Origin: Bolinopsis microptera | Lineage: Eukaryota > Ctenophora > Tentaculata > Lobata > Bolinopsidae | DNA length: 64,000 bases | Reading direction: 5' to 3' | Assembly: GCF_026151205.1 (NCBI RefSeq) | Contig: NC_087080.1 | Coordinates: 1,544,879 to 1,608,878 of the forward strand | Shown: positions 13,383-49,039 of the stretch, in pieces | Position numbering within the stretch: position 1 is the stretch's first letter | Layout: the number at the start of each line of letters is the position of its first letter | The notes under the pieces: model-generated | Told to the model about the DNA's origin: nothing | What the model saw: the letters and a program-made list of their open reading frames with translations, nothing else | Database searches by the model: none | Made by a program: the position numbers and the translations under genes

Positions 13383-13917
13383 TATGGGGTCCCTTGCTTT
13401 ACTTGCCATGGTGGCGGGGGTTTCACCTAGCTTGCTAGTCTATTGCTCGCTCCTCTCTGTACAGGAAGCTTGAAAATAGCGCCGCGCACAGGGACTGGTG
13501 TGCCAGGTAAGCGGGGGTTTTACGTTTCATTCCTGTTCATGGAAGAAGTGAACTTTGTGGATGTAACGATCTAGAGACGGGATCAGCGATTGAAAACATT
13601 TAGTTGTATAATGGTATAATGATGATAGGTGTTTCTGGAAACGGTGACCTTGGGTTTCTTATTGAAGGCATAAGCTTTTTTATATAGTTATTTGTATATT
13701 TGGTGTATTTATTTGAATTTATATGTTATTAACACTATTTGATTATTTATTAAAATACGCTTTTTCTTGTTCATTTACAATGATCATTCCTTTTCATTTA
13801 TAAATTGTCATAAAATTTAATGATTGACACGAATTTATCCAGGACTCTCTAAAGAGTACATTTTAAATGTCAATATCAAAACCCTGTTTGGGTAAAGCTT
13901 GGTTGATAATCGTTGAT

Positions 13918-14414
13918 GTGTTTGTGAGTGGGAGGTGATATAGTTTTCCAATCTGCATCAAAACATGTCAGTCCCCTGATTCTCAGTTAATTGACCCCCG
14001 CCCCCTCGTCATCCAGTCACCTGACCTCCACTCTGCAACCAGTCCAACCAGTCATGTTGATCTCTGATTGGACGCTGTTGTGTCACGTGCTCTGGAACAG
14101 ACCAATCAGAGGCCAGATAATTGTCACGTGACCAGCGAGATCAGGAACAAGAGACGGAGGCGGAGTGCCGGCGTCCTGGGAACATGTTCGTCACCCAGTC
14201 CCGACAGAGTCGTTACCAGCATGTAGGGGACGGGTTGATTGAGGGTTGAGGCAGGGAGGGGTACCTCGGCACTGGGAACGTTCACCTCGTTAAGGGAGTT
14301 TATATAGGCTAAGTGAAAAGTTAGTCACTCAGTTTACTAATTCCATTGATTGGTTGCAGTTACAATAACAGTTTTGATTCGATTTCACTCTTTGTTAACG
14401 ATAAATCTTATTCG
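13918..14414 (+). promoter_or_regulatory. Promoter and 5' flank of SIX copy 5
   Basis: TATA element at 14299-14306, 116 bp before the ATG, with both CCAAT boxes and both E-boxes present. Small differences include an extra TA in GTGATATAGTTTTCC. Confidence 0.65.
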
Positions 14415-17400: not shown

Positions 17401-19216
17401 ATCAAAGCCCGCCTAAACATTTTCCAAAGCCTTATCCAATCCCATCTAAATTTCTGTTCTTTAGTGTGGGGATTTGCCTCAAAATGTCACATTGAATCTC
17501 TGTTCACCAAGCAAAAGCAGGGAATTAGAGCTGTTATGTCAGGATATGTAAATTATAGATATAAAGACGGCAATCCCCCGGAGCACACAAAAAGTGCGTT
17601 TAGATTGCATAATATCCTAACAGTCCATAGCGTCATTGTAAAAAACGCTCTTATTCTACTACACAAAGTAAGGAACATGCCAAGCCTTCTCCCTAAATCC
17701 ATCAAAGAAATTTTCCCTCACGATATTCCCACCTATAATTCCACATACGAACATAACCTTTCTTGGTTCACAACTTACAACGGCCCAACATTTAGAAATA
17801 CTCTTTTCTTCAAAGGACCCATGCTCTCTATTACAAAACAAAGTAAGGATATAACTATTCCAAGTTCTACCTTTCCAATTGAAATCTTTAAAAATTCAGC
17901 TAAGCGCGAACTCCTCAAGCTGCAAAGCTCAGGAGACGATGAAAATTGGCCAAATTTCTTACTTTATAGTATACCTGGGCTAAGAAAGTCTCAAAGAGAA
18001 GGGCGCTCGCAAATAGACTACAGCACCGAGTTATAAGTAAGCGACAACACGTAAAGAAAGATCACTCGCGACAAATGACTATGATCTTTTATCAACAACA
18101 TATCATTTTAATTTCACTGCCATTATGCAATGCCGAATTTACATCTGCCGCGCAAAACTTTTTATCTATTATTATTAAATAGTAATTAGCATGTTTACAA
18201 ATTGCGACTTCATCCAGTTTTGCAGACCGTTAGTTATATAGTACTTTTAGTAGGGCTTTTATTTTAATATATTTTATTTTACATTATTATATTTTAGTGT
18301 GACTTCTATAATTTCATTTATGTAATAACCATTGATTAATAAATTGCGGCACACGCCAACCTCCACCGTGGGGTTTCAAAACAAAACAAACAATTAACGT
18401 GGGGGGTATATTTAACCTTACCACACTTGTTAGCAGTATATAAAATATAACGGTGCTTGTTACCGTTGTAACTAGCTGATCTCTAATAACAAATACTCAG
18501 GTGAACCAGAGATCCCAGGTGTACCAGACCAACTCTGACCTACACAAGAACTGCATGGTAGCCCAGTTCCTAGCTACTTCCGGACAGTTTGGAAAGTTCT
18601 TCGAGTTCGTGACGAGCAGCCAGTTCCGGGACCAGGACCACACCGGAGTACAGCAGCTCTGGCTTCACTGCCTCTACACTCAACGTATGTTATTTTCTCA
18701 AGTATATCTTTTATTAATTAATATTAACGTTTGTTTTCTTTTATATTTTTTCTTGGTTGTTTCCAGATCACTAACAAACAAGTAATAGATATTGATAATT
18801 TACTAAATTACTAACCCCAATCTCCACTAGACGCAGCCAGCAAGAAGACACCCCTGACAGCAGTTGATAGGCACAGACTAAGAAAGAGGTTCCCCTACCC
18901 CGCTAGCGTGTGGAATGGGGAGACCACCAGTTACAACCTCAAACAGTCCGCTAGAAGGCTGCTAGCTATAGCCTTCTCAGTGGACCAGTACCCGTCTAAC
19001 GAGGAGAAGAAACATTTAGCAGACGTGTGTGAGATGGACTACCTGCAGATCTGTAACTGGTTCAAGAACAGACGGATGAGGGAGAAACGGCTGCAGAAGG
19101 AAGAGAGACGAGGATCAGGAAAGACCTCCCCCTCCTCCTCCTCTACCTCCCCAAGCTCCAGATCTATTACTGATGCTGTCACTGAGCTCTCCCAGCTACG
19201 AGACCAAACTCTCTGA
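14415..19216 (+). CDS. SIX-family homeobox transcription factor, tandem copy 5 (LINE in intron 2)
   Basis: Exons 14415-14885, 15082-15267, 18501-18684 and 18831-19216 encode 408 residues with the same domains as the other copies. Intron 2 is enlarged by a 3.0 kb LINE in the same orientation; exon boundaries are untouched, so the protein is still encoded. The exon 1 donor is GTGAAT, weaker than GTGAGT in the others. Protein variants include QVYQ in exon 3 and LRDQTL at the C terminus. The 5' half is closest to copy 4 and the 3' half to copy 3, a mosaic best explained by unequal exchange or gene conversion. Efficient expression is uncertain given the donor change and the insertion. Confidence 0.8.
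15380..18392 (+). mobile_element. 5'-truncated LINE (Jockey/CR1-like), in SIX copy 5 intron 2
   Basis: Non-LTR retrotransposon bounded by a short ATTAA repeat at 15375-15379 and 18393-18397, interrupting the phrase GACATTAACGTGGGG that is continuous in other copies. One frame is open from the left edge to the stop at 18036. It starts within the apurinic-type endonuclease (GDANIDL, then MSDHLAV with the catalytic SDH). The reverse transcriptase follows, with YRPISLLG, DYSKAFD, VPQGSILGPLL and the YADD catalytic box. A 3' untranslated tail of about 350 bp ends in an A/C-rich CAAAACAAAACAAACAA. The first part of the endonuclease and any ORF1 are missing, so it is immobile alone. Its long intact frame suggests a recent insertion. 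Family assignment is by motif only. Confidence 0.85.
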
Positions 19217-21756: not shown

Positions 21757-22647
21757 AGTGACTGTAACCATGGTAACAAACACTGTAACCATGGTAACAA
21801 ACACTGTAACCATGGTAACAAACACTATAACCATGGTAACAAGCACTGTAACCATAGTATAAAACACTGTAACCATGGTAACAAACACTGTAACCATGGT
21901 AACAAACACTGTAACCATGGTAACAAACACTGTAACCATGGTAACAAACATAATAACCATGGTAACAAACACTATAACCATGGTAACAAACACTGTGACC
22001 ATGGTAACAAACACTGCAACCATGGTAACAAACACTGTAACCATGGTAACAAACACTGTAACCATGGTAACAAACACTATAACCATGGTAACAAACACTA
22101 TAACCATGGTAACAAACACTGTGACCATGGTAACAAACACTGTAACCATGGTAACAAACATTTTAACCATGGTAAAAAACACTGTAACCATGGTAACAAA
22201 CACTGTAACCATGGTAACAAACACTGTAACCATGATAACAAACACTGTAACCATGGTAACAAACACTGTAACCATGGTAACAAACACTGTAACCATGGTA
22301 ACAAACACTGTAACCATGGTAACAAACACTGTAACCATGGTAATAAACACTGTAACCATGGTAACAAACACTGTAACCATGGTAACAAACACTGTAACCA
22401 TGGTAATAAACACTGTAACCATGGTAACAAACATTGTAACCATGGTAAAAAACACTGTAACCATGGTAACAAACACTGTAACCATGGTAACAAACACTGT
22501 AACCATGGTAACAAACACTGTAACCATGGTAATAAACACTGTAACCATGGTAACAAACACTGTAACCATGGTAATAAACACTGTAACCATGGTAACAAAC
22601 ACTGTAACCATGGTAACAAACACTGTAACCATGGTAACAAACATCCA
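21757..22647. repeat. 21 bp satellite with a 14 bp palindrome per unit
   Basis: About 42 units of CATGGTAACAAACACTGTAAC. Each junction forms the perfect palindrome GTAACCATGGTAAC. As 21 is divisible by three and the unit has no stop, long frames are open on both strands (MVTNTVT on plus, MVTVFVT on minus). These are periodicity artefacts without splice or promoter context. Confidence 0.95.
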
Positions 22648-23603: not shown

Positions 23604-24615
23604 GACTAGTGGTTGCCAGTGTTTACTAGTGGTTAATAGTGGTTGCTAGTGGTTGCTAGTGGTTACTAGTGGTTACTAGTGGTTACTAGTGGTTGCTAGT
23701 GGTTATTATTGGTTGCTATAAGTGGTTATTATTGGTTGCTAGTGGTTATTATTGGTTGCTATAAGTGGTTATTATTGGTTGCTAGTGGTTGCTAGTGGTT
23801 GCTAGTGGTTACTAGTGGTTGCTAGTGGTCATTAGTGGTTGCTAGTAGTTGCTAGTGGTTACTAGTGGTTGCTAGTGGTTGCTAGTGGTTATTATTGGTT
23901 GCTAGTGGTTATTATTGGTTGCTAGTGGTTATTATTGGTTGCTATAAGTGGTTATTATTGGTTGCTAGTGGTTGCTAGTGGTTGCTAGTGGTTACTAGTG
24001 GTTGCTAGTGGTTGCTAGTGGTTACTAGTGGTTGCTAGTGGTTGCTAGTGGTTATTATTGGTTGCTATAAGTGGTTATTATTGGTTGCTAGTGGTTATTA
24101 TTGGTTGCTAATGGTTATTATTGGTTATTAGTGGTTACTAGTGGTTGCTAGTGGTTGCTAGTGGTTGCTAGTAGTTGCTAGTGGTTACTAGTGGTTGCCA
24201 GTTGTTACTAGTGGTTGCTAGTGGTTACTAGTGGTTGCTAGTGGTCATTAGTGGTTGTTAGTAGTTGCTAGTGGTTACTAGTGGTTGCTAGTTGTTACTA
24301 GTGGTTACTAGTGGTTGCTAGTGGTTACTGGTGGTTGCTAGTTGTTACTAGTGGTTACTAGTGGTTACTAGTGGTTATTAGTGGTTACTAGTGGTTGCTA
24401 GTGGTTACTAGTGGTTGCTAGTAGTTGCTAGTGGTTATTAGTGGTTGCTAGTGGTTACTAGTGGTTGCTAGTGGTCATTAGTGGTTCCTAGTGGTTACTA
24501 GTGGTTATTAGTGGTTACTAGTAGTTGCTAGTGGTTACTAGTGGTTGCTAGTGGTTGCTAGTGGTTATTGGTGGTTGCTAGTGGTTACTACTTACTAGTG
24601 GTTACTAGTGGTTAC
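23604..24615. repeat. 10 bp satellite (TAGTGGTTGC/TAGTGGTTAC)n
   Basis: About 100 units with interspersed variants (TTATTGGTTG, TATAAG, TCATTAG). It abuts the last exon of the GPCR gene: on the minus strand the coding GCG AAG runs straight into GTAACCACTAG, the first unit. It is thus the 3' flank of that gene, or a downstream intron if GTAACC acts as a donor. Confidence 0.95.
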
Positions 24616-27600
24616 CTTCGCAAGAACTCGTTTATCATCCACGGCGTCCTTTCCAAGCACAAGATACCGGAAATACTGATTGTAGTTATGATCCACCCTG
24701 GAAAAACAAATGTTACATTTTCAGAGGGAAACCCTACAGGAAAAAAATCTTGTTAACAATTCTGATAGTTCGCGTATAATTTCCAAACCACTTATTTTAA
24801 TTTATTATTTTGAGTTATAACTCTTCGTCCCTATTGGTTATGTTTCATAGTTTTGTTTTCGGTTCTTCTATCTCAAATATTGTTTAAGCGAGTTTGTGAT
24901 TGAGCAGGGTTGCAGTTTTGCACCGTTTCAAATTTTAACAGCGCCAGTGAAGGCCGGGTTTACACAAGTATCAAGTATGCTCATAATCTGAATATAATTG
25001 GCGATTAAGATCTCGGATGATAACAAGAACAGAAAAAAAGATTCACAGTATTTCTAGTTGAAACGCTAGGAACAAACCAGTACAGGATGAAGGGGGTGAG
25101 GAGGATAGAAACGAATAACAAACCAGTAAAGGAGGAAGGGGGTGAGGAGGATGGAAACGAATAACAACCCAGTAAAGGAGGAAGGGAGTGAGGAGGATAG
25201 AAACGAATAACAAACCAGTAAAGGAGGAAGGGGGTGAGGAGGATGGAAACGAATAATAAACCAGTAAAGGATGAAGGGGGTGAGGAGGATGGAAACGAAT
25301 AACAAACCAGTAAAGGATGAAGGGGGTGAGGAGGATGGAAACGAATAACAAACCAGTAAAGGATGAAGGGAGTGAGGAGGATGGAAACGAATAACAAACC
25401 AATAAAGGATGAAGGGGGTGAGGAGGATGGAAACAAATAACAAACCAGTAAAGGATGAAGGGGGTGAGGAGGATGGAAACGAATAACAAACCAGTAAAGG
25501 ATGAAGGGGGTGAGGAGGATGGAAACAAATAACAAACCAGTAAAGGATGAAGGGGGTGATGAGGATAGAAACGAATAACAAACCAGTAAAGGATGAAGGG
25601 GGTGAGGAGGATGGAAACAAATAACAAACCAGTAAAGGATGAAGGGGGTGAGGAGGATGGAAACGAATAACAAACCAGTAAAGGATGAAGGGGGTGAGGA
25701 GGATGGAAACGAATAACAAACCAGTAAAGGATGAAGGGGGTGAGGAGGATGGAAACGAATAACAAACCAGTTAAGGATGAAGGGGGTGAGGAGGATGGAA
25801 ACGAATAACAAACCAGTAAAGGATGAAGGGGGTGAGGAGGATGGAAACGAATAACAAACCAGTAAATGATGAAGGGGGTGAGGAGGATGGAAACGATTAA
25901 CAAACCAGTAAAGGATGAAGGGGGTGAGGAGGATAGAAACGAATAACAAACCAGTAAAGGATGAAGGGGGTGAGGAGGATTGAAACAAATAACAAACCAG
26001 TAAAGGATGAAGGAGGTGAGGAGGATGGAAACGAATAATAGACCAGTAAAGGATGAAGGAGGTGAGGAGGATGGAAACGAATAACAAACCAGTAAAGGAT
26101 GAAGGGGGTGAGGAGGATGGAAACGAATAACAAACCAGTAAAGGATGGAGGGGGTGAGGAGGATGGAAACGAATAACAAACCAGTAAAGGATGAAGGGGG
26201 TGGGGAGGATAGAAACGAATAACAACCCAGTAAAGGATGAAGGGGGTGAGGAGGATAGAAACGAATAACAAACCAGTAAAGGATGAAGGGGGTGAGGAGG
26301 ATGGAAACGAATAACAAACCAGTAAAGGATGAAGGGGGTGAGGAGGATGGAAACGAATAACAAACCAGTAAAGGATGAAGGGAGTGAGGAGGATGGAAAC
26401 GAATAACAAACCAATAAAGGATGAAGGGGGTGGGGAGGATGGAAACGAATAACAACCCAGTAAAGGATGAAGGGGGTGAGGAGGATGGAAACAAATAACA
26501 AACCAGTAAAGGATGAAGGGGGTGAGGAGGATGGAAACAAATAACAAACCAGTAAAGGATGAAGGGGGTGAGGAGGATGGAAACGAATAACAAACCAGTA
26601 AAGGATGAAGGGGGTGAGGAGGATGGAAACGAATAACAAACCAGTAAAGGATGAAGGGGGTGAGGAGGATGGAAACGAATAACAAACCAGTAAAGGATGA
26701 AGGGGGCGAGGAGGTTGGAAACGAATAACAAACCAGTAAAGGATGAAGGGGGTGAGGAGGATGGAAACAAATAACAAACCAGTAAAGGATGAAGGGGGTG
26801 AGGAGGATGGAAACGAATAACAAACCAGTAAAGGATGAAGGGGGTGAGGAGGATGGAAACGAATAACAAACCAGTAAAGGATGAAGGGGGTGAGGAGGAT
26901 GGAAACGAATAACAAACCAGTAAAGGATGAAGGGGGTGAGGAGGATGGAAACGAATAACAAACCAGTAAAGGATGAAGGGGGCGAGGAGGTTGGGAACGA
27001 ATAACAAACCAGTAAAGGATGAAGGGGGTGAGGAGGATGGAAACGAATAACAAACCAGTAAAGGATGAAGGGGGTGAGGAGGATGGAAACGAATAACAAA
27101 CCAGTAAAGGATGAAGGGGGTGAGGAGGATGGAAACGAATAACAAACCAGTAAAGGATGAAGGGGGTGAGGAGGATGGAAACGAATAACAAACCAGTATA
27201 GGATGAAGGGAGTGAGGAGGATGGACCCGTAGTACCAGCAGAGTTGGAACATGTTGACTTTAGTGGACATGTCCGCATACTCAACACCAGGTAACATACA
27301 CAACAGAGAGATTAGTATGTAGGGCAGCAGTCCTGAAGAAGGTTACTATGGTTACTATTGGTAACTAGTGGTTACTAGTGGTTACTAGTAATGAGTAAGT
27401 TACTCTGGACAGTGGGTTAAAATCAATATGCAATCATTTGCATTCTACCAACATTTCACTTCGGTTAGCCCCTTACCTAGGATAGCCCTTACCTAGGATA
27501 GCCCTTACCTAGGATAGCCCCGAGACAGAGCCAACATGATACAGTCTGAGGTGGTGCTGTTGCCTCGTTTGGTAGCTGAACTAACCTACGCCTGGTGAAT

Positions 27601-30600
27601 ATTAGAGTTGTTGGCCATTTTGATGAAGTTGAACGGCTCAATAGTATTTACAACAAAACAAGGAGACTAAATTAAACGGTAATTAATTTTGCACAGAATA
27701 GATTTTTTTCCTCTAACCAGACCCCTCGCGCATTGCAGTAGCGCGCGCCCGCCGAATAGAATTTTCTGGAACGTCACAATAATTAAACAATGTTCTGGAA
27801 AACATGAGCAGATTTTTGTATACGATTGGATAGATACGTAATTGGCTTTATTGTCCTCTGTACTACTTTATCGGACGTTATTTGACCGGACATTGTGTGA
27901 ACAGACATAGTTTTAAGCGAACATTAAAATGAACGCTAGCGCCTCTAACCTTGAATTAATGTCCGTTCAAATAAAATCTGATAAGTTAGCTGCACGACTA
28001 CGATGTACACAAAAATTTTGTTGCGAAATGATCGATTGAAACCTCGTTTAACAGTCCATTTGCGCGCGCAAGTTTAAGTGTACATTGTCAGCAGTGAGTG
28101 TAAGTAAGAGTTTCTCAATTACAAGACACTAACTTTCTGAAGAGAACAATAGAGCTGCACGTGGTGATAACAATTACAAGACACTAACTTTCTGAAGAGA
28201 ACAATAGAGCTGCACGTGGTGATAACAAGACACTAACTTTCTGAAGAGAACGATAGAGCTGCACGTGGTGATAACAATTACAAGACACTAACTTTCTGAA
28301 GAGAACGATAGAGCTGCACGTGGTGATAACAATTACAAGCTACACTAACTTTCTGAAGAGAACGATAGAGCTGCACGTGGTGATAACAATGACAAGACAC
28401 TAACTTTCTGAAGAGAACGATAGAGCTGCACGTGGTGATAACAAGACACTAACTTTCTGAAGAGAACGATAGAGCTGCACGTGGTGATAACAATTACAAG
28501 ACACTAACTTTCTGAAGAGAACGATAGAGCTGCACGTGGTGATAACAAGACACTAACTTTCTGAAGAGAACGATAGAGCTGCACGTGGTGATAACAATTA
28601 CAAGCTACACTAACTTTCTGAAGAGAACAATAGAGCTGCACGTGGTGATAACAATTACAAGACACTAACTTTCTGAAGAGAACGATAGAGCTGCACGTGG
28701 TGATAACAATTACAAGCTACACTAACTTTCTGAAGAGAACGATAGAGCTGCACGTGGTGATAACAATTACAAGACACTAACTTTCTGAAGAGAACGATAG
28801 AGCTGCACGTGGTGATAACAATTACAAGACACTAACTTTCTGAAGAGAACGATAGAGCTGCACGTGGTGATAACAATTACAAGACACTAACTTTCTGAAG
28901 AGAACAATAGAGCTGCACGTGGTGATAGCAATTACAAGACACTAACTTTCTGAAGAGAACGATAGAGCTGCACGTGGTAATAACAATTACAAGACACTAA
29001 CTTTCTGAAGAGAACAATAGAGCTGCACGTGGTGATAACAAATACAAGCTACACTAACTTTCTGAAGAGAACAATAGAGCTGCACGTGGTGATAACAAGA
29101 CACTAACTTTCTGAAGAGAACGATAGAGCTGCACGTGGTGATAACAATTACAAGCTACACTAACTTTCTGAAGAGAACGATAGAGCTGCACGTGGTGATA
29201 ACAATTACAAGACACTAACTTTCTGAAGAGAACGATAGAGCTGCACGTGGTGATAACAATTACAAGCTACACTAACTTTCTGAAGAGAACGATAGAGCTG
29301 CACGTGGTGATAACAAGACACTAACTTTCTGAAGAGAACAATAGAGCTGCACGTGGTGATAACAATTATAAGACACTAACTTTCTGAAGAGAACGATAGA
29401 GCTGCACGTGGTGATAACAATTACAAGACACTAACTTTCTGAAGAGAACGATAGAGCTGCACGTGGTGATAACAATTACAAGACACTAACTTTCTGAAGA
29501 GAACAATAGAGCTGCACGTGGTGATAACAATTACAAGACACTAACTTTCTGAAGAGAACGATAGAGCTGCACGTGGTGATAACAATTACAAGACACTAAC
29601 TTTCTGAAGAGAACAATAGAGCTGCACGTGGTGATAACAATAACAAGACACTAACTTTCTGAAGAGAACAATAGAGCTGCACGTGGCGATAACAATTACA
29701 AGACACTAACTTTCTGAAGAGAACAATAGAGCTGCACGTGGTGATAACAATTACAAGCTACACTAACTTTCTGAAGAGAACGATAGAGCTGCACGTGGCG
29801 ATAACAATTACAAGACACTAACTTTCTGAAGAGAACAATAGAGCTGCACGTGGTGATAACAATTACAAGCTACACTAACTTTCTGAAGAGAACAATAGAG
29901 CTGCACGTGGTGATAACAATTACAAGACACTAACTTTCTGAAGAGAACAATAGAGCTGCACGTGGTGATAACAATTACAAGCTACACTAACTTTCTGAAG
30001 AGAACGATAGAGCTGCACGTGGTGATAACAATTACAAGACACTAACTTTCTGAAGAGAACGATAGAGCTGCACGTGGTGATAACAATTACAAGACACTAA
30101 CTTTCTGAAGAGAACAATAGAGCTGCACGTGGTGATAACAATTACAAGCTACACTAACTTTCTGAAGAGAACGATAGAGCTGCACGTGGTGATAACAATT
30201 ACAAGACACTAACTTTCTGAAGAGAACGATAGAGCTGCACGTGGTGATAACAATTACAAGCTACACTAACTTTCTGAAGAGAACGATAGAGCTGCACGTG
30301 GTGATAACAATTACAAGACACTAACTTTCTGAAGAGAACAATAGAGCTGCACGTGGTGATAACAATTACAAGACACTAACTTTCTGAAGAGAACGATAGA
30401 GCTGCACGTGGTGATAACAATTACAAGACACTAACTTTCTGAAGAGAACAATAGAGCTGCACGTGGTGATAACAATTACAAGACACTAACTTTCTGAAGA
30501 GAACGATAGAGCTGCACGTGGTGATAACAATTACAAGACACTAACTTTCTGAAGAGAACGATAGAGCTGCACGTGGTGATAACAATTACAAGACACTAAC

Positions 30601-33600
30601 TTTCTGAAGAGAACGATAGAGCTGCACGTGGTGATAACAATTACAAGACACTAACTTTCTGAAGAGAACGATAGAGCTGCACGTGGTGATAACAATTACA
30701 AGACACTAACTTTCTGAAGAGAACGATAGAGCTGCACGTGGTGATAACAATTACAAGACACTAACTTTCTGAAGAGAACGATAGAGCTGCACGTGGTGAT
30801 AACAATTACAAGACACTAACTTTCTGAAGAGAACGATAGAGCTGCACGTGGTGATAACAATTACAAGACACTAACTTTCTGAAGAGAACGATAGAGCTGC
30901 ACGTGGTGATAACAATTACAAGACACTAACTTTCTGAAGAGAACGATAGAGCTGCACGTGGTGATAACAATTACAAGACACTAACTTTCTGAAGAGAACG
31001 ATAGAGCTGCACGTGGTGATAACAATTACAAGACACTAACTTTCTGAAGAGAACGATAGAGCTGCACGTGGTGATAACAATTACAAGACACTAACTTTCT
31101 GAAGAGAACGATAGAGCTGCACGTGGTGATAACAATTACAAGACACTAACTTTCTGAAGAGAACGATAGAGCTGCACGTGGTGATAACAATTACAAGACA
31201 CTAACTTTCTGAAGAGAACGATAGAGCTGCACGTGGTGATAACAATTACAAGACACTAACTTTCTGAAGAGAACGATAGAGCTGCACGTGGTGATAACAA
31301 TTACAAGCTACACTAACTTTCTGAAGAGAACGATAGAGCTGCACGTGGTGATAACAATTACAAGACACTAACTTTCTGAAGAGAACGATAGAGCTGCACG
31401 TGGTGATAACAATTACAAGACACTAACTTTCTGAAGAGAACGATAGAGCTGCACGTGGTGATAACAATTACAAGACACTAACTTTCTGAAGAGAACGATA
31501 GAGCTGCACGTGGTGATAACAATTACAAGACACTAACTTTCTGAAGAGAACGATAGAGCTGCACGTGGTGATAACAATTACAAGACACTAACTTTCTGAA
31601 GAGAACGATAGAGCTGCACGTGGTGATAACAATTACAAGACACTAACTTTCTGAAGAGAACGATAGAGCTGCACGTGGTGATAACAATTACAAGACACTA
31701 ACTTTCTGAAGAGAACGATAGAGCTGCACGTGGTGATAACAATTACAAGACACTAACTTTCTGAAGAGAACGATAGAGCTGCACGTGGTGATAACAATTA
31801 CAAGACACTAACTTTCTGAAGAGAACGATAGAGCTGCACGTGGTGATAACAATTACAAGACACTAACTTTCTGAAGAGAACGATAGAGCTGCACGTGGTG
31901 ATAACAATTACAAGACACTAACTTTCTGAAGAGAACGATAGAGCTGCACGTGGTGATAACAATTACAAGACACTAACTTTCTGAAGAGAACGATAGAGCT
32001 GCACGTGGTGATAACAATTACAAGACACTAACTTTCTGAAGAGAACGATAGAGCTGCACGTGGTGATAACAATTACAAGACACTAACTTTCTGAAGAGAA
32101 CGATAGAGCTGCACGTGGTGATAACAATTACAAGACACTAACTTTCTGAAGAGAACGATAGAGCTGCACGTGGTGATAACAATTACAAGACACTAACTTT
32201 CTGAAGAGAACGATAGAGCTGCACGTGGTGATAACAATTACAAGACACTAACTTTCTGAAGAGAACGATAGAGCTGCACGTGGTGATAACAATTACAAGA
32301 CACTAACTTTCTGAAGAGAACGATAGAGCTGCACGTGGTGATAACAATTACAAGACACTAACTTTCTGAAGAGAACGATAGAGCTGCACGTGGTGATAAC
32401 AATTACAAGACACTAACTTTCTGAAGAGAACGATAGAGCTGCACGTGGTGATAACAATTACAAGACACTAACTTTCTGAAGAGAACGATAGAGCTGCACG
32501 TGGTGATAACAATTACAAGACACTAACTTTCTGAAGAGAACGATAGAGCTGCACGTGGTGATAACAATTACAAGACACTAACTTTCTGAAGAGAACGATA
32601 GAGCTGCACGTGGTGATAACAATTACAAGACACTAACTTTCTGAAGAGAACGATAGAGCTGCACGTGGTGATAACAATTACAAGACACTAACTTTCTGAA
32701 GAGAACAATAGAGCTGCACGTGGTGATAACAATTACAAGACACTAACTTTCTGAAGAGAACGATAGAGCTGCACGTGGTGATAACAATTACAAGCTACAC
32801 TAACTTTCTGAAGAGAACGATAGAGCTGCACGTGGTGATAACAATTACAAGACACTAACTTTCTGAAGAGAACGATAGAGCTGCACGTGGTGATAACAAT
32901 TACAAGACACTAACTTTCTGAAGAGAACGATAGAGCTGCACGTGGTGATAACAATTACAAGACACTAACTTTCTGAAGAGAACGATAGAGCTGCACGTGG
33001 TGATAACAATTACAAGACACTAACTTTCTGAAGAGAACGATAGAGCTGCACGTAGTGATAACCACCAGGAACCCCTGCACGATGAGATTGGAGAAGAGGA
33101 TTAGAGAGGGTCTGTAGTTGGTGTCCGTTGTGGTGTGTATTGCACATCCTCCGTATCCGGACCTGCATGTTTTGCGGAGTATTTAGAATCTTACCGACCA
33201 TTACAGCGTTATATTATGCAATATAATCAGCATTAAGACTTAAAACTAACACAAACTCATGTTGCAATGACTCACGTATACTCGATGTGCATTCCGAAGC
33301 CTGATGCGATGGAGGTGATGAGGGGAATTAGTCCCAGACACCAGATAAATGCTAGCAGCAGGCCACTCTGTTAAAAGAAGTTACAATTATAGAATCCATT
33401 ACCATGGTAACCAACGTTACAATTATAGAATCCATTACCATGGTAACCAACGTGACAATTACGTTCACTAATTGAGTTGAAATTACGTAATTGAGATCAA
33501 TTTTACGAACCTGCTATTATAACCTACAATGAACATTAACAACCTGACGTTATATTACAAAGTAAAATAACCACTAGTAACCACTAGTAACCACTAGTAA

Positions 33601-36600
33601 CCACTAGTAACCACTAGTAACCACTAGTAACCACTATTAACCACTAGTTACCACTAGTAACCACTAGTAACCACTAGTAACCACTAGTTACCACTAGTAA
33701 CCACTAGTAACCACTAGGTACCACTAGTTACCACTAGTTACCACTAGTAACCACTAGTAACCACTAGTAACCACTAGTAACCACTAGTAACCACTAGTAA
33801 CCACTAGTTACCACTAGTTACCACTAGTTACCACTAGTTACCACTAGTTACCACTAGTAACTACTAGTAACCACTAGGTACCACTAGTAACCACTAGTAA
33901 CCACTAGTTACCTCTAGTAACCACTAGTTACCACTAGTTACCACTAGTAACTCACCCTGACAATACCAGCAGTGTTCCTACTGGGCATGTTGCAGAATAC
34001 TGGATAAAGGGACAAGACCAGAAAGGTAATAGTCCGGGTCAGGGTCAGGTACTCTTCTGCGAGAGGGAAGAAGCCACACCCTGACCAGCCAAACACCCAT
34101 CTGCAAGTACGTCACGGTTTAATGGGTGGGGTTACGGGTGAGATGTAAAGTAATTAAGGTTTACATCTTTTATATAGAATCATAATATTATGTCAATCAA
34201 GTCAAATGTCCGGAAAGTCTTAAATCAGCAAATATTAGTTGCTAATTGATTAATAATTAATAATCCACTAAACCTGTCTGCAGCCACAGTAATTCCACGA
34301 GGAAAGACGATGAGGACGAGAAATAGGAGGTCAACCATAGTTAAGTTCAGAATCAGAGCTGCCCCGAATCTAGTAAAAGTTGGGGTCGTTACTTTAACCC
34401 ATTAGAATCAGAGCTGCCCCGAATCTATTAAAAGTTGGGGTCGTTACTTTAACCCATTAGAATCAGAGCTGCCCCGAATCTAGTAAAAGTTGGGGTCGTT
34501 ACTTTAACCCATTAGAATCAGAGCTGCCCCGAATCTAGTAAAAGTTGGGGTCGTTACTTTAACCCATTAGAATCAGAGCTGCCCCGAATCTAGTAAAAGT
34601 TGGGGTCGTTACTTAAACCCATTAGAATCAGAGCTGCCCCGAATCTAGTAAAAGTTGGGGTCGTTACTTTAACCCATTAGAATCAGAGCTGCCCCGAATC
34701 TAGTAAAAGTTGGGGTCGTTACTTTAACCCATTAGAATCAGAGCTGCCCCGAATCTAGTAAAAGTTGGGGTCGTTACTTTAACCCATTAGAATCAGAGCT
34801 GCCCCGAATCTAGTAAAAGTTGGGGTCGTTACTTTAACCCATTAGAATCAGAGCTGCCCCGAATCTAGTAAAAGTTGGGGTCGTTACTTTAACCCATTAG
34901 AATCAGAGCTGCCTCGAATCTAGTAAGAGTTGGGGTCGTTACTTTAACCCATTAGAATCAGAGCTGCCCCGAATCTAGTAAAAGTTGGGGTCGTTACTTT
35001 AACCCATTAGAATCAGAGCTGCCCCGAATCTAGTAAAAGTTGGGGTCGTTACTTTAACCCATTAGAATCAGAGCTGCCCCGAATCTAGTAAAAGTTGGGG
35101 TCGTTACTTTAACCCATTAGAATCAGAGCTGCCTCGAATCTAGTAAGAGTTGGGGTCGTTACTTTAACCCAATATAATCAGAGCTGCCCCGAATCTAGTA
35201 AAAGTTGGGGTCGTTACTTTAACCCATTAGAATCAGAGCTGCCCCGAATCTAGTAAAAGTTGGGGTCGTTACTTTAACCCAATATAATCAGAGCTGCCTC
35301 GAATCTAGTAAGAGTTGGGGTCGTTACTTTAACCCATTAGAATCAGAGCTGCCCCGAATCTAGTAAGAGTTGGGGTCGTTATTTTAACCCATTAGAATCA
35401 GAGCTGCCCCGAATCTAGTAAAAGTTGGGGTCGTTACTTTAACCCATTAGAATCAGAGCTGCCCCGAATCTAGTAAAAGTTGGGGTCGTTACTTTAACCC
35501 ATTAGAATCAGAGCTGCCCCGAATCTAGTAAAAGTTGGGGTCGTTACTTTAACCCATTAAAATCAGAGCTGCCCCGAATCTAGTAAAAGTTGGCGTCGTT
35601 ACTTTAACCCAATAGGGACGACGAATTTGTCGATTTTGATTCCATTTAACACACTAGGTCACCTCACAGCAACTACTACTGCTACTTTGTCGGAACTAAG
35701 TCCGATCTACGACAGATAACCCCCTCCATATATCCCTGTCCCGCATCAGGGTTAACAGTTCCTCTTTATAGTTTGTCCCAACTTCCTTCAGTAACATGGT
35801 CGGCCTTGCTATGTAGGGCACCCTCTGATTTTTCTTTTCTACCCCTTATCTCCTTAACTGTGCTCTCGATCCAGGAGCTTAAGTAGATGAAATCATTCAC
35901 ATTTTCTATGGTTTTCCCAGATTGACTTTGAAGGTCACTAGATTGATCCTCCATATTCAATGTCATAACCTTAGTGTTGCCTTGATCGTTTATGTGTAGC
36001 CCCACAATTGCCAATTTTTTGGTCCTAGTGGGTCTCTAATGACCCATTTAACCAATTTTTCGCAGTTTATGGTGATAATCACTCGCTTTTGAGGCGATTT
36101 TGCACTTTTTATGTCATTTTGTAGACCGAATTCAAAAATCTACATGCACATATTATGTAAAAATACAAGTAAGCCGAGTGGGAGACATGGTATCGGCCAT
36201 ATGTTTTATCTTATGCAACAGTTTTTATTTTATCCTAACGTCTTCGTTTCAGAAGTGATAGCCGAAAAACGTGATGGGCCGTATGCGACCGCAGTTGGCA
36301 AACAGCGTCTAGCTCTGTTTGTGAACATCTGATTATCACGGGCTTTTCATAAGCCTTTTTTCGCATAGCACCCATGGCCTTCACGAAGTTTTAATGGCCC
36401 AATAAAGGCCAAATGTTTATTGGAATAATTTCCAATTATCTCGACTATTTAACTTAATTATCTAATTGTTACTCACTCATTAGGCCCATATTCCGAAGTG
36501 AATAATGTAGCCCACTAGTTTAACTAACTTGTTGCTATGGTAACACACTAGTTTAACTAACTTGTTACTATAGTAATACACTAGTTTAAATAACTTGTTG

Positions 36601-39600
36601 CTATGGTAACACACTACTTTAACTAACTTGTTGCTATGGTAACACACTAGTCTAACTAACTTGTTGCTATGGTAACACACTAGTTTAACTAACTTGTTGC
36701 TATGGTAACACACTAGTTTAACTAACTTGTTACTATGGTAACACACTACTTTAACTAACTTGTTGCTATGGTAACACACTATAAGTTTAACTAACTTGTT
36801 GCTATGGTAACACACTAGTTATAGTTTAACTAACTTGTTACTATGGTAATACACTAGTTTAACTAACTTGTTACTATAGTAATACACTAGTTTAACTAAC
36901 TTGTTGCTATGGTAACAAACTAGTTATAGTTTAACTAACTTGTTGCTATGGTAACACACTAGTTTAACTAACTTGTTGCTATGGTAATACACTAGTTTAA
37001 CTAACTTGTTACTATGGTAATACACTAGTTTAACTAACTTGTTGCTATGGTAATACACTAGTTTAACTAACTTGTTACTATGGTAATACACTAGTTTAAC
37101 TAACTTGTTGCTATGGTAATACACTAGCTTAACTAACTTGTTGCTATGGTAACACACTAGTCTAACTAACTTGTTGCTATGGTAATACACTAGTTTAAAT
37201 AACTTGTTACTATGGTAACACACTAGTTTAACTAACTTGTTACTATGGTAACACACTAGTTTATGACTAACTTGTTACTATGGTAACACACTAGTTTAAC
37301 TAACTTGTTGCTATGGTAACACACTAGTTTAACTAACTTGTTGCTATGGTAATACACTAGTTTAACTAACTTGTTACTATAGTAATACACTAGTTTAACT
37401 AACTTGTTACTATAGTAATACACTAGCTTAACTAACTTGTTGCTACGGTAACACACTAGTTTAACTAACTTGTTACTATGGTAACACACTAGTTTAACTA
37501 AATTGTTAATTGCTAAATGCTATGGTAACACACTAGTTTAACTAACTTGTTGCTATGGTAATACACTAGTTTAACTAACTTGTTACTATAGTAATACACT
37601 AGTTTAACTAACTTGTTGCTATGGTAATACACTAGTTTAACTAACTTGTTACTATGGTAATACACTAGTTTAACTAACTTGTTGCTATGGTAATACACTA
37701 GCTTAACTAACTTGTTGCTATGGTAACACACTAGTCTAACTAACTTGTTGCTATGGTAATACACTAGTTTAAATAACTTGTTACTATGGTAACACACTAG
37801 TTTAACTAACTTGTTACTATGGTAACACACTAGTTTATGACTAACTTGTTGCTATGGTAACACACTAGTTTAACTAACTTGTTGCTATGGTAATACACTA
37901 GTTTAACTAACTTGTTACTATAGTAATACACTAGTTTAACTAACTTGTTGCTATGGTAATACACTAGTTTAACTAACTTGTTACTATGGTAATACACTAG
38001 TTTAACTAACTTGTTGCTATGGTAATACACTAGCTTAACTAACTTGTTGCTATGGTAACACACTAGTCTAACTAACTTGTTGCTATGGTAATACACTAGT
38101 TTAAATAACTTGTTACTATGGTAACACACTAGTTTAACTAACTTGTTACTATGGTAACACACTAGTTTATGACTAACTTGTTACTATGGTAACACACTAG
38201 TTTAACTAACTTGTTGCTATGGTAACACACTAGTTTAACTAACTTGTTGCTATGGTAATACACTAGTTTAACTAACTTGTTACTATGGTAATACACTAGT
38301 TTAACTAACTTGTTACTATGGTAATACACTAGTTTAACTAACTTGTTACTATAGTAATACACTAGCTTAACTAACTTGTTGCTACGGTAACACACTAGTT
38401 TAACTAACTTGTTACTATGGTAACACACTAGTTTAACTAAATTGTTAATTGCTAAATGCTATGGTAACACACTAGTTTAACTAACTTGTTGCTATGGTAA
38501 CACACTAGTTTAACTAACTTGTTGCTATGGTAACACACTATAAGTTTAACTAACTTGTTTCTGTTGAAGCCTAGAAGTATCCCCCTGATCCACGACAGCG
38601 CTGTTATTACAGAAGATCCTGTACCTGAAAGGAAGGTAGATTAATTTACTTTACTGCATAAATTCATAAATTCATACGAGTTGGTAACACCTAGGTAACC
38701 TAGGTAACGAGTGGGTAACACCTAGGTAACCTAGGTAACGAGTGGGTAACACCTAGGTAACCTAGGTAACGAGTTGGTAACACCTAGGTAACCTAGGTAA
38801 CGAGTGGGTAACACCTAGGTAACCTAGGTAACGAGTGGGTAACACCTTGGTAACCTAGGTAACGAGTGGGTAACACCTAGGTAACCTGTTGTTTGTTATG
38901 ACACAATTTTAACTTATTGGAAATGTTGCACGCCTGACGCATTCCATTGTCCAAGCTGCACGTGACACAATTCAGCCAATCAGAGGACTGGAACCCGCAA
39001 AGTTAAAGTTGTGAACGTTTATTCGGCCCAAAATAAGACTTTTTGGGATCACTCAAAACCTAGGTTGTCCCAAATTTTGCTCCTGGGGAGCTAACTTAAG
39101 TTTCAAGGGACGAAAATTTTGCTGAAAACCGGAAGTCGATATATTTTACTTTCGGAGATAGGCCCAAGCCAATAAGGTTTCCTGGGAGGTTATTCGATCG
39201 TTTTTAACCGATAATAACCATTCTTAACCAATCAAACCAAGCAAACTAACCCATTGTCGTCTTTACTATTAAAGTTTTATTATTATTAGGTTTTAAAAAC
39301 GCAATATTTATTCAACAATCCACTCGGTATAACATTGTGATATGAAATTTATATCACGATAAAGATAATAGGCAACTAATATTATAAGAGTCTCGCTCAT
39401 CTACAATGAGATTATTGATAAAGGAGTAATTATTGATCACGAGACACGTATCGCAATATAATATATTTAATTTTCTTTCGAATCAACAATTTGTCTAGAA
39501 TATTGATCATTGACTGTGCAATTGCAACACCACTAATTAATGGAGCTTGGAATTTTGTTCAGAATTAAATTTCTTAAATCCCCCTCTCTGTACCCCCATC

Positions 39601-40257
39601 GCCCTCTCTGTACCCCTCCCCCTCCCCCTCTCTGTACCCCCTCCCCACTCTCTCACATGACATGTACCCCCTCCCCACTCTCTTCCACATGACATGTACC
39701 CCCCTTCTCTAGGGTACAAACCTAGGAAGAATACGAAGAAGAGCCACATGACATGTACCCCCCTTCTCTAGAGTACGAACCTAGGAAGAGTACGAAGAAG
39801 AGCCACATGACATGTACCCCCCTTCTCTAGAGTACGAACCTAGGAAGAGTACGAAGAAGAGCCACATGACATGTACCCCCCTTCTCTAGAGTACGAACCT
39901 AGGAAGAGTACGAAGAAGAGCCACATGACATGTACCCCCCTTCTCTAGAGTACGAACCTAGGAAGAGTACGAAGAAGAGCCACATGACATGTACCCCCCT
40001 TCTCTACTCTCTAAGGGTACAAACCTAGGAAGAGTACGAAGAAGAGCCACATGACATGTACCCCCTTTCTCTAGGGTACAAACCTAGGAAGAGTACGAAC
40101 CTAGGAAGAGTACGAACCTAGGAAGAGTACAAACCTAGGAAGAGTACGAACCTAGGAAGAGTACGAAGAAGAGCCACATGACCAGGATCCCGAGCTCGCT
40201 CGTGTGCCTCCCACTTGCAAACATGTACAAACTTACGTTCTCCTCAATCTCTATCAT
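24595..40257 (-). CDS. Rhodopsin-like seven-transmembrane receptor (GPCR), nine exons
   Basis: Plasma-membrane receptor of 323 residues; ligand unknown. Exons in order: 40152-40257, 38555-38624, 34274-34369, 33956-34100, 33276-33367, 33025-33162, 27509-27591, 27194-27332, 24595-24697. Every junction is GT-AG and phases agree (1,2,2,0,2,2,1,2). Exon 1 starts MIEIEENVS with an N-glycosylation site, then TM1. Exon 3 has TM2 (NLTMVDLL, matching NLxxADLL). Exon 4 has the ECL1 signature WVFG, the TM3 cysteine, and YPV where DRY is usual. Exon 5 holds TM4. Exon 6 has the ECL2 cysteine (GYGGC) and TM5. Exons 7-8 hold TM6 (GLLPY in place of CWLPY), ECL3 and TM7 (TPFILY near NPxxY). Exon 9 is a helix-8-like tail with stop TAG at 24595-24597. 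The loss of DRY makes coupling uncertain. Most introns hold satellite arrays seeded at splice sites. An extra 3' exon is possible if GTAACC after AAG is used as donor. Confidence 0.8.
24698..25065 (-). other. 3' part of GPCR intron 8
   Basis: Unique intron sequence between the 46 bp array and the exon 9 acceptor (TTTTTCCAG just above 24697). No further exon seen. Confidence 0.5.
25066..27230 (-). repeat. 46 bp minisatellite built on the exon 8 / intron 8 junction
   Basis: About 47 units. On the minus strand each holds about 30 nt matching the end of exon 8 (CTCCTCACCCCCTTCATCC, then TTTACTG), followed by the donor GTTTGTTATTCG. The first, slightly different copy (CTATACTG|GTTTGT at 27194) is the real exon end. 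As 46 is not divisible by three and the unit has no stop in any minus frame, all three frames stay open for up to about 2.2 kb. These frames encode shuffled TM7 pieces (LLTPFILYWFVIRF) and are not separate genes. Confidence 0.9.
27345..27395. repeat. Short 10 bp repeat in GPCR intron 7
   Basis: About five GGTTACTAGT-type units just upstream, on the minus strand, of the exon 8 acceptor. Same word as the large 10 bp arrays. Confidence 0.75.
27472..27520 (-). repeat. 16 bp repeat (x3) spanning the exon 7 donor
   Basis: On the minus strand GGCTATCCTAG|GTAAGG is repeated three times in tandem. The first copy is the end of exon 7 with its donor; the next two lie in the intron with intact donor words. 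Confidence 0.85.
27592..28110 (-). other. 3' part of GPCR intron 6
   Basis: Unique sequence between the 55 bp array and the exon 7 acceptor. It contains a short dispersed repeat at 27711-27756 (CTCTAACCAGA..., TTGCAGTAGCGCGCG), also found at 42221-42264. Confidence 0.5.
28115..33058 (-). repeat. 55 bp minisatellite built on the exon 6 / intron 6 junction, ~90 copies
   Basis: On the minus strand each unit carries about 40 nt of exon 6 end (GTGCAGCTCTATCGTTCTC, TTCAGAAA) followed by the donor GTTAGTGTCTTG. The true exon copy at 33025-33060 differs by CTACGTGC where array units have CCACGTGC, creating a CACGTG word in each unit. Unit lengths are 55, 57 (GCTACACT variant) and 49 bp (loss of TTACAA). 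The stretch from about 30480 to 32690 is nearly uniform, while 28115-30480 mixes variants, showing recent homogenisation of one block. Confidence 0.95.
33375..33452. repeat. ~36 bp direct repeat, two copies
   Basis: Two copies of TTACAATTATAGAATCCATT followed by ACCATGGTAACCAACG, lying in GPCR intron 4 next to the exon 5 acceptor. Confidence 0.85.
33566..33953. repeat. 10 bp satellite (ACCACTAGTA)n in GPCR intron 4
   Basis: About 38 units. On the minus strand it begins a few bases inside the intron, directly after the exon 4 donor GTGAGTTACTAG. The same family as 23604-24615 but in the opposite orientation. Confidence 0.95.
34340..35622 (-). repeat. 55 bp minisatellite built on the intron 2 / exon 3 junction, ~23 copies
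   Basis: On the minus strand each unit contains the acceptor CTTTTACTAG followed by the first ~20 nt of exon 3 (ATTCGGGGCAGCTCTGATTC). Here the 3' splice site is amplified. The true exon at 34369 is the last copy in transcript order. Minor variants (CTCGAATC, AATATAATC) are shared by neighbouring units. Confidence 0.95.
35650..36014 (-). mobile_element. LINE remnant, reverse transcriptase C-terminal part
   Basis: On the minus strand a frame reads NTKVMTLNM, then DFIYLSSWIESTVKEIR and RKEKSEGALHSKADHV, the end-of-RT region of many LINEs (DFxYLGSWI...DIxxRKxxAW). It is then joined, by an internal deletion, to the 3' end seen at 62429-62683 (TTACTGAAGGAAGTTGGGAC) and a TAG/TAC-rich tail. It lies in GPCR intron 2. 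Confidence 0.75.
36015..36490. other. GPCR intron 2 sequence, nothing recognised
   Basis: Short open frames only. TGATAATCAC and GATTATCAC words lie about 260 bp apart in opposite orientation, too short to call an element. Confidence 0.4.
36495..38575 (-). repeat. 33 bp minisatellite starting at the exon 2 donor, ~63 copies with higher-order structure
   Basis: On the minus strand the unit contains GCAACAA|GTTAGTTAAACT, matching the exon 2 end and donor (AGAAACAA|GTTAGTTAAACT at 38555). It also carries TGTGTTACCATA. As 33 is divisible by three it leaves frames repeating VCYHSNKLVKL. Marker units with GTTTATGACTAAC (37260, 37835, 38166) and with AATTGTTAATTGCTAAATGC (37500, 38440) reveal a higher-order block of about 0.9 kb and an internal ~0.33 kb block. 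Confidence 0.95.
38670..38895. repeat. 31 bp minisatellite, ~7 copies
   Basis: Units of GAGTGGGTAACACCTAGG followed by TAACCTAGGTAAC, in GPCR intron 1 just beyond the exon 2 acceptor. Confidence 0.95.
38896..39590. other. GPCR intron 1 sequence, nothing recognised
   Basis: Unique AT-rich sequence. No exon-like segment in phase with the receptor was found here. Confidence 0.5.
39591..40175 (-). repeat. 59 bp minisatellite built on the exon 1 / intron 1 junction
   Basis: About eight units plus degenerate ends. On the minus strand each unit has CATGTGGCTCTTCTTCGTAC and TCTTCCTAG|GTTCGTAC, the last ~29 nt of exon 1 (TM1) with its donor. The copy at 40152 is the genuine exon end. Near 40080-40150 a shorter sub-unit (AGAGTACGAACCTAGGA) has amplified. 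Confidence 0.95.
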
Positions 40258-45659: not shown

Positions 45660-48600
45660 CTGTCGATATGTCATATTAAATCACGTTAAACTGATTAATA
45701 AGGGTTATTTTGACGGTTTCTTATGTTCTCTTCCGCAGTTCCGCGATTTAATTTTTCTGTCCCAACCCGAACCCTTTCAAGCAACCTCAAATATAACTAC
45801 ACTATCGTTTGCTCGGGGGTCCAAGTCTCAAATACTGTATACAATTTACCATTCTGTAGCGCAGTTAAATTGAATTTAAAACATAACAATAATATAAGAT
45901 TTAAAGTTATCTTACCACAGGCAGTTTTGTTAGTGTTTGGTTTCCATCCAGCGTCACATGTCTCACAGCTTGTCATAGCATCATTTCGATATGTTCCTTC
46001 CCGACACGGCTCTGGAATTATAACGTTATATATTATTACAACTGGTAAATCGTTGTGGAAGATAAGGAAATCGTTATTATATAAGACGTACACTTCAGAT
46101 GTGTTACAATCAAATTAGATTTAAAACAATAGGTGAATAACTAAATATCCACACAACCACGGTTTTTTGATAGAATTATTACCACCCAGACTCTTACGGT
46201 TCTTGTCTTTTCGTACCACAAATTTGCCTTCTTGATTCTAAGCCCTATCTGGCGCCTTATTCTTATCCTGTCTTAACCCTTATCCTATCTTTGCCCATCT
46301 ATGTAGATATAATCATCTCAGCTCGAATCTTGTTAACAATTCTTACCACATTTTGTTCTCCCTGAGTTTCGTTCCTGGCCAAGTTCACAAACTGTACACA
46401 AGGCTGCTCCTTCTGAACTGATCGTGTTATCAGGACATTCTTTACATGTGTTCATCTCAATGTTCTTGTAGCTTCCAGCTGGACATGGCTCTGAAGAATT
46501 AGGAAATCTTTAAGCAACGATTCGTTTGAACTACCTTATTAATATTAAGAAGTTATTGTGAGTACCAATATCCTCGGTTCTCATTCTATAGCACAGTTAA
46601 TTAAATTTAAAACACAACAATATTTTTAAACATAAGCTTTAAAGTTATCTTACCACAGGCTGTTTTGTCAGAGTTTGGTGTCAATCCAGCTTCACATGTC
46701 TTACAGCTTGGCATAGCATCATTCCGATATTTTCCTTCTCCACACGGCTCTGGAATTAATAACGTTAAAACTGGCAAATCGCAATGGGAGATAAGAAAAT
46801 CGTTATTATATAACTATTTAAGTACAGTTCAGATGTGTTACAATAACATTAGATTTTTAACAATATGTGAAAAATTAAATATCCACACAACCACGGTTTT
46901 TTTGATAGAATTATTACCACCCAAACTTTTACGGTTCTAGCCTTTTCGTACCACAAATTTGCCTTCTTGATTCTAAGCCCTATCTGGCGCCTTATGCTTA
47001 TCCTGTCTTAACCCTTATCCTATCTTTGCTCATTTATGCAGATAAAATCATCTCAGCTCGATTCTTGTTAACAATTCTTACCACATTTTGTTCTTTCTGA
47101 ATTTCGTTCCTGGCCAAGTTCACAAGCTGTACACAAGGCTGCTCCTTCTGAACTGATAGTGTTATCAGGACATTCTTTACATGTGTTAATCTCAATGTTC
47201 TTGTAGCTTCCAGCTGGACATGGCTCTGAAGAATTAGGAAATCTTTAAGCAACGATTCGTTTGAACTACCTTATTAATATTAAGAATTTATTGTTAATAC
47301 CAATATCCTCGGTTTTCATTCTATAGCACAGTTAATTAAATTTAAAACACAACAATATTATTAAACATAAGCTTTATTCTTTAAATTTATCTTACCACAG
47401 GCTGTTTTGTCTGAGTTTGGTGTCAATCCAGCTTCACATGTCTCACAGCTTGTCATAGCATCATTCCGATATGTTCCTTCTCCACACGGCTCTGGAATTA
47501 ATAACGTTACAACTGGCAAATCGTAATGGAAGATAAGAAAATCGTTATCATATAAGTATTTAAATACAGTTTAGATGTGTTACATTGTTACAATAACATT
47601 AGATTTATAACAATAGGTGAATAATTAAATATCCACACAACCACGGCATACCACAAATTTGCCTTCTTGATTCCAAGTCCTATCTGGCGCCTTATCCTTA
47701 TCCCGTCTTAACCCTTATCCTATCTTTGTCCATCTATGCAGATATAATCATCTCAGCTCGATTCTTGTTAACAATTCTTACCACATTTTGTTCTCCCTGA
47801 GTTTCGTTCCTGGCCAAGTTCACAAACTGTACACAAGGCTGCTCCTTCTGAACTGATCGTGTTATCAGGACATTCTTTACATGTGTTCATCTCAATGTTC
47901 TTGTAGCTTCCAGCTGGACATGGCTCTGAAGAATTGGGAAATCTTTAAGCAGCAATTCGTTTGAACTACCTTTTTAATATTAAGGGGGGGGGGGGGGGGG
48001 TTCATGTGAGACATGTGACGCTGGATTGACACCAAACTCTGACAAAACAGCCTGTGGTAAGATAACTTTAAAGCTTATATTTAATACTATTGTTGTGTTT
48101 TAAATTTGAATTAAATGTGCTATAGAATGAAAATCGAAGATATTGTTACTCACGATAACTTCTTAAGGGGGGGGGGGGGGGGGGTTCACCCTGATTTCTT
48201 GTGAAACTTGGTTTCGAAATAGCAGTTGACCAACAAACTAGGACCAGAGACCGAACTTTTGAGGGGGTCCCGGACCCCAACCGCCAAACGGTGCCCGCGG
48301 GGCAGCCACGCCCATATTTGGTCCAAATTCTTGGAAAAATGCCTGGCAAATTTTGGAATTTGGCCGCCAAATTTTTTTAAAGGCCTAACTCAAATTCCAA
48401 TACAAAACTTAAGGTCGAAATGCGATTCTACGTCGATTCTGAAAATTTCATGTAAAAATATTGAAACCCTATTGAGTTCTATTGTTTTGAGCGAAATCAG
48501 TTTTGCAAATATCGCGAACTGAGATATGGGCGATTTTGTTCATTTTTTGCGATTATTTGAACACAGAATCCACAGTTAGTTAGATACTGAGCTGATAATC

Positions 48601-49008
48601 ATAGAGAATGTGTAGTATAGGCTTACCTTTCATATAAAGTTGGTTTCATTCAAAAATATTGATATTTGACCAATTTATGGGCCAAAGTCGATCAAATTTG
48701 GTGCGTATGCCCAAATATGGTCATATTGTTTTTGGCTCATAACTCAGTCATTTTTTGTCCAATCTTGATGAAAATTCATATACGAGTTCACGGGACCACT
48801 AGCTACAAGTAGAGCACATAAAATCTGGTTTTTGGGCATGTTCAGGTTATTTAGCTAAATTGGGCCTAATTTGGACCAAATATGGGCGTGGCTGCCCCGC
48901 GGGCACCGTTTGGCGGTTGGGGTTTGGGACCCCCTCAAAAGTTCGGTCACTGGTCTTAGTTTGTTGGTCAACTATCTCGAAACCAAGTTTCACAAAAAAA
49001 TCAGGGTG

Positions 49009-49039
<31 letters not shown>

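Follow-up and report, generated by a model that had tools for sequence, protein, structure and literature searches.

The window analysed here, a stretch of 64,000 nucleotides, carries on its minus strand a predicted GPCR-like receptor gene (40257-24595) of nine coding exons and 323 codons. Exons 1-3 are placed at 40257-40152, 38624-38555 and 34369-34274, exons 4-6 at 34100-33956, 33367-33276 and 33162-33025, and exons 7-9 at 27591-27509, 27332-27194 and 24697-24595. In this predicted model the nine joined exons form an open frame that starts with the ATG at 40257 and closes with a stop codon whose last base is 24595 (a coordinate derived from the exon lengths), with GT-AG borders in all eight introns. 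Splice sites were placed by eye, with preference for those that maintain the frame; the exon edges are therefore predictions, and the consistency of the intron phases is partly a matter of that choice. At exon 3, hand reading rejected the nearer acceptor (GGGGCAG/CT, slash at the splice site), which loses the frame, and the frame-keeping acceptor is CTAG/ATTCGG at 34370/34369.

Hydropathy of the 323-codon product exceeds 1.2 at nine peaks, of which three overlap with neighbours. Together they account for all expected transmembrane segments but TM7, which stays below this cut-off (six of seven). A Pfam search of the product returned no family at E<=1. A PDB search at E<=0.01 gave four weak hits: three entries for the gastrin-releasing peptide receptor, the best at E=0.00098, and one for galanin receptor 1 (E=0.008, residues 24-301). 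The label "GPCR-like" seems fair to us for what would be a very diverged receptor.

Two other genes share the window. At 2829-19216 on the plus strand a diverged SIX-type homeobox gene is repeated in tandem, with five copies at intervals of about 2.9 kb; the one copy scanned matched Homeodomain (E=6.3e-12) and SIX1_SD (0.0018, below its cut-off), and a reverse transcriptase ORF (15361-18036; RVT_1 5e-33) apparently sits within the fifth copy. Tandem, diverged SIX-type genes are not reminiscent of amphioxus, and in the passages available to us 18 SIX-class homeodomains are given for the ctenophore Mnemiopsis, at most a weak pointer to the host lineage. At 45900-52700 on the minus strand, a gene in which two kinds of short cysteine-rich exon alternate (EPCGEGTYRN... 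and EPCPAGSYKN..., by eye) contains a 282-bp exon duplication at 49042-49588 and an inverted exon piece near 48000-48150, with long C/G runs at the break points (by eye). Rfam (gathering thresholds) and ARAGORN found one tRNA-Ser in the window and nothing else.

Arrays in the receptor-like gene

Merging overlapping TRF rows gave eleven arrays in and just after the GPCR-like gene (A1-A11, all listed on the minus strand), covering 11,805 of the 15,663 bp of the gene interval. All array kinds together make up 11,660 of its 14,691 intron bases (79%).

In six of these arrays the tandem unit spans a splice junction of the predicted gene model, at five donors and one acceptor. A1 (39578..40182) lies at the exon 1 donor and consists of a 59-bp array (6.9 copies by TRF) with a nested 17-bp array (5.4 copies) and 20-30-bp rows at its far end; its upper end, 40167 by TRF, was widened to 40182 by eye to take in 31 exon nt. 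A3 (36513..38559) is a 33-bp array of 60.6 copies (TRF) at the exon 2 donor, and A4 (34349..35615) holds 23 copies (TRF) of a 55-bp unit at the exon 3 acceptor. A7 (28116..33062), again with a 55-bp unit, has 90 copies (TRF) at the exon 6 donor. At the exon 7 donor A8 (27470..27520) has only 3.2 copies (TRF) of a 16-bp unit, and A10 (25071..27225) has 46.8 copies (TRF) of a 46-bp unit at the exon 8 donor. TRF and the gene model thus place the six where a preceding sequence-only reading had put them, and its six unit lengths (59, 33, 55, 55, 16 and 46 bp) are those returned by TRF.

Of the remaining five, A5, A6, A9 and A11 were outside that reading. Three lie close to exon edges: A5 (33568..33951; 10-bp unit) begins 4 bp after exon 4, leaving the genuine donor outside its unit, A6 (33380..33461; 36-bp unit) ends 12 bp before exon 5, and A9 (27341..27389; 10-bp unit) ends 8 bp before exon 8. 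A11 (23605..24615), about 100 copies of a 10-bp unit, reaches into the last exon, where its first two units supply the final residues and the stop codon of the gene model. A2 (38676..38887), a 31-bp array in intron 1, is the only array away from an exon edge, at 51 bp from exon 2.

For A1, A3, A4, A7, A8 and A10, in that order, TRF gives an exon overlap of 16, 5, 21, 38, 12 and 32 nt; by eye the unit contains 31, 5, 21, 37, 11 and 32 exon nt, leaving 28, 28, 34, 18, 5 and 14 intron nt (unit length minus the by-eye count). The breakpoints therefore fall 5-37 nt into the exon, counted by eye, and 5-34 nt into the intron, at a variable offset from the splice site. The weakest of the junction-spanning cases is A3 at exon 2, with its 5 exon nt. 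The exon copies of A7 and A10 are, by eye, one or two letters off the array consensus. A7 matches itself exactly over 1,342 bp at lag 55, and A3 contains a 364-bp exact repeat whose copies are 906 bp apart; these long exact self-matches, observed directly like the anatomy and the open frame, are signs of recent expansion and fit slippage and unequal exchange.

The six units had been described as unrelated to each other, and among themselves this holds: none of their pairs is similar at z>3 (60 shuffles per pair). It does not extend to the other arrays of the gene, since by the same comparison the A8 unit resembles A2 and the A3 unit resembles A2, A5 and A9; A5, A9 and A11 have one 10-mer in common, in both orientations (orientation by eye). 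GTTACC/GGTAAC or GGTTAC/GTAACC motifs are present in A2 and A3 (both of GTTACC type), A5, A6, A9 and A11, six of the eleven arrays, and were absent from A1, A4, A7, A8 and A10 when searched for there. They occur also in four of seven other arrays checked in the window (21761-22643, for example), so that part of the pattern is a local array background. GTTAC(C)/G(G)TAAC cores are thus common to otherwise different arrays, and outside arrays the GTTAC-type 6-mers are somewhat over-frequent (57 vs 39 in mononucleotide shuffles). By pattern, A3 also holds 28 sites resembling the X-box, an RFX-type motif; three more lie outside the listed arrays, at 886, 59588 and 63735. Introners are dispersed families of near-identical introns. 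We do not favour this reading for the arrays: in the comparison within the gene the units of A1, A4, A7 and A10 were like none of the others at z>3, whereas A5, A9 and A11 do have their 10-mer in common.

Decoy splice sites

The sequence-only reading had credited the gene with tens to about 90 decoy copies of individual splice sites. The upper figure stands, whereas not every site is copied tens of times: pattern counts, which allow small variants and include the genuine site, are 11 (A1), 59 (A3), 23 (A4), 90 (A7), 3 (A8) and 46 (A10), a range of 3 to 90 and a total of 232, of which 226 are decoys. In A3, 55 of the 59 donor copies have exact AAGTTAGT, and in A10 40 of the 46 have exact CTGGTTTGT; all 90 donor copies of A7 are intact AAAGTTAGT.

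If used instead of the genuine site, 215 of the 226 decoys would break the reading frame; the cell must therefore either favour the genuine site or dispose of misspliced RNA. With the other 11 the frame would stay open as far as the normal stop, nine at exon 8 and two at exon 2 (10/46 and 3/59 donors with the genuine site included). Among the first 28 copies of A10 the frame is open at every third copy, with the end of TM7 repeated. A 481-codon ORF at 25897-27342 (minus) reflects the 46-bp array of intron 8 being open in the frame of exon 8, which means that exon 8 could lengthen by 46 residues for every three units.

We compared non-consensus letters at the sites with the number expected from the rest of the unit (A8 is too short for this). 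The sites of A10 (8 vs 8.8), A1 (3 vs 3.6) and A4 (1 vs 2.6) differ little from expectation or fall slightly below it; those of A3 (6 vs 19.9) and A7 (0 vs 9.3) have fewer changes, and 6 of the 33 equal-length windows in the A3 unit and 21 of the 55 in the A7 unit do as well as the site itself. Neither erosion nor upkeep of the decoys is consistent across the arrays, though A3 and A7 tend toward upkeep, and we set aside selection on decoy sites because its signal is not consistent among A1, A3, A4, A7 and A10.

An intron with as many as 90 near-identical donors is a natural test of splice-site choice. If the first donor is the one chosen, it can be asked whether exon definition, the order of transcription or something else decides.

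Origin of the arrays

We consider it probable that the arrays are minisatellites of the "mirage" type known from amphioxus, of ordinary birth and expansion, tolerated with the exon-proximal splice site intact. Ordinary slippage or end-joining would have produced short tandem duplications within and near the introns of this one gene, and six of the duplications would have taken in an exon edge. Edge duplications would be tolerated, since coding sequence and an intact splice site are both preserved in the exon-proximal copy; splicing would rely on the first copy of a donor (or the last of an acceptor) and discard the remaining copies, and unequal exchange and slippage would then expand the arrays, to as many as 90 copies. 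We infer the mutational route, the neutral tolerance and the use of the exon-proximal site. Ordinary minisatellite birth is favoured by the variable ends of the duplications, by the lack of any match to the exon on the far side of the intron (see below) and by the long self-matches. Also in favour of the mirage explanation are the decoy sites, neither consistently eroded nor consistently conserved relative to the other columns of their units and for the most part frame-breaking. Three points count against neutral mirages: random seeding predicts fewer edge arrays than the six seen, the donors of A7 and A3 lean toward a conservation that neutrality does not need, and the exon edges and site use are predicted, the splice sites having been chosen by frame.

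On this view, mirages in the strict sense are the motif-free arrays (A1, A4, A7, A8 and A10). A3 falls into both classes, and its 5 exon nt could be the chance end of an ordinary array. Elsewhere in the window, an 81-bp array at 1-228 has, on the minus strand, a donor-like TGTAAGT in two of its three copies (by eye) and diverged relatives about 1.5 kb away, at about 1635-1760; it is possibly another candidate mirage.

Alternatively, tandem duplication in this lineage may preferentially strike splice junctions, donors above all (6 of 16 junctions here); should the host lie outside the cephalochordates, distant animals would share the process, which would point to a mutational route linked to transcription or splicing. 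We regard this broader proposal as unlikely. We are at least as doubtful of its mechanistic form, put forward by the sequence-only reading, in which a mutational process targeting splice junctions (R-loop or spliceosome-linked breaks, or reverse-splicing-like duplication) seeds the arrays there. If true genome-wide, such seeding would link the origin of minisatellites to splicing or transcription.

The case for targeting is the placement of the arrays, together with donors making up five of the six junctions spanned. When the ten intronic arrays (A11 left out) were randomly placed in three ways, overlap with an exon by at least 5 nt, seen in six of the ten, was expected in 1.22-1.33 (P 3e-4 to 4.6e-4), and overlap or a distance of at most 12 bp from an exon edge, seen in nine, was expected in 2.0-2.7 (P<=3e-5); edge overlap is thus above chance inside the gene, as the reading had implied, but these P values come from one gene chosen for its striking look and are not genome-wide probabilities. 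That choice, together with survival bias, may account for the edge excess within the gene.

Against targeting, the offset from the splice site is not fixed: a cut or reverse-splicing event at the junction predicts duplications that end at the splice site, and the ends vary. Furthermore, in the neighbouring genes short arrays (period <=100, score >=40) touch none of 53 junctions set by sequence patterns, 27 in the cysteine-rich gene and 26 in the SIX-type copies, where the patterns recovered 26 of the 30 junctions expected across the five copies. Arrays of period >100 were left out of this comparison, among them the 282-bp row at 49042-49588, a whole-exon duplication that does span splice junctions of the cysteine-rich gene. 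Fisher tests of 6/16 and 9/16 junctions against 0/53 give P=6.7e-5 and P=2e-7, although the neighbouring introns have few short-period arrays, so the comparison reflects array load as much as location. With variable offsets, no touched junction among the 53 and a GTTAC-type background, we find the proposed mechanism unsupported.

That the arrays have a role in splicing, as redundant or regulated sites yielding length isoforms, most plausibly at exon 8, is quite improbable. The open frames at exon 8 and exon 2 and the 90 intact donors of A7 are what such a role would draw on, but the great majority of decoys break the frame, the site changes in A10, A1 and A4 are about equal to or slightly below expectation, and the open frame of A10 may merely reflect a pyrimidine-rich sense strand.

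Less credible still is an origin of the introns themselves from tandemly duplicated exon pieces that held a proto-splice site (the Rogers model). The units at exons 1 and 7 hold TAG/GT after pyrimidine-rich sequence (by eye), so that each copy could act as both acceptor and donor; yet, compared with 200 shuffles each, all six units failed to match the exon on the other side of the intron better than chance (p 0.125-0.815), and on the absence of that far-side match we rejected intron gain from these repeats.

Least credible of the accounts considered is an assembly artefact or decaying pseudogene: very long arrays of closely similar copies are difficult to assemble and the receptor has diverged beyond Pfam detection, but the 323-codon frame is open across nine exons and the array copies carry scattered variants.

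Comparison with described boundary repeats

The Rogers model, in which tandem duplication of a proto-splice site creates an intron (as cited in PMC3087553), has in common with our case a duplicated exon segment with splice signals, and differs in the far-side exon match that all six of our units lack. In human segmental duplications, the passages available from PMC2812944 describe internal tandem repeats at exon-intron boundaries, with 30-bp units, four repeats on average and recent paralogues, which can bring cryptic splice sites into use. Minisatellite expansion at the boundary is the shared feature; new introns are reported there, whereas no unit here matches across its intron.

The closest parallel is in amphioxus. 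The sequence-only reading knew of no described system with this location rule; in this it was mistaken, since the "mirages" of amphioxus, tandem repeats across exon-intron boundaries, are in print, and the rule is not new. The passages we draw on describe them in Adh3 and the globins BflGb6 and BflGb9 (PMC3087553), with PGBD5 added and troponin C cited later (PMC3902484). Their units measure 10-72 bp in Adh3 and about 150-160 bp in the globins; both 5' and 3' sites are affected, AG/GT signals recur in many copies, and the arrays are internally homogenised (PMC3087553, PMC3902484). Length and somatic instability are reported at Adh3 (PMC3087553), and BflGb6 has three or six units depending on haplotype (PMC3087553, PMC3902484). 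The Adh3 data and globin RT-PCR suggest regular splicing without interference (PMC3087553), which, with the same anatomy, supports the mirage explanation for the GPCR-like gene. Among the papers listed by our open-access literature search we saw no genome-wide test of mirages and, judging by titles, nothing on intron minisatellites in ctenophores.

The units of the GPCR-like gene likewise span exon-intron boundaries, at five donors and one acceptor of the predicted model, with units of 16-59 bp and 232 site copies by pattern. They differ in extent: three or six units in BflGb6, against 3 to 90 here at six junctions of one gene. Amphioxus-style mirages can thus reach the extreme of a gene whose introns are 79% array, all array kinds counted, and as far as the passages show, this scale within one gene is new relative to the mirages described.
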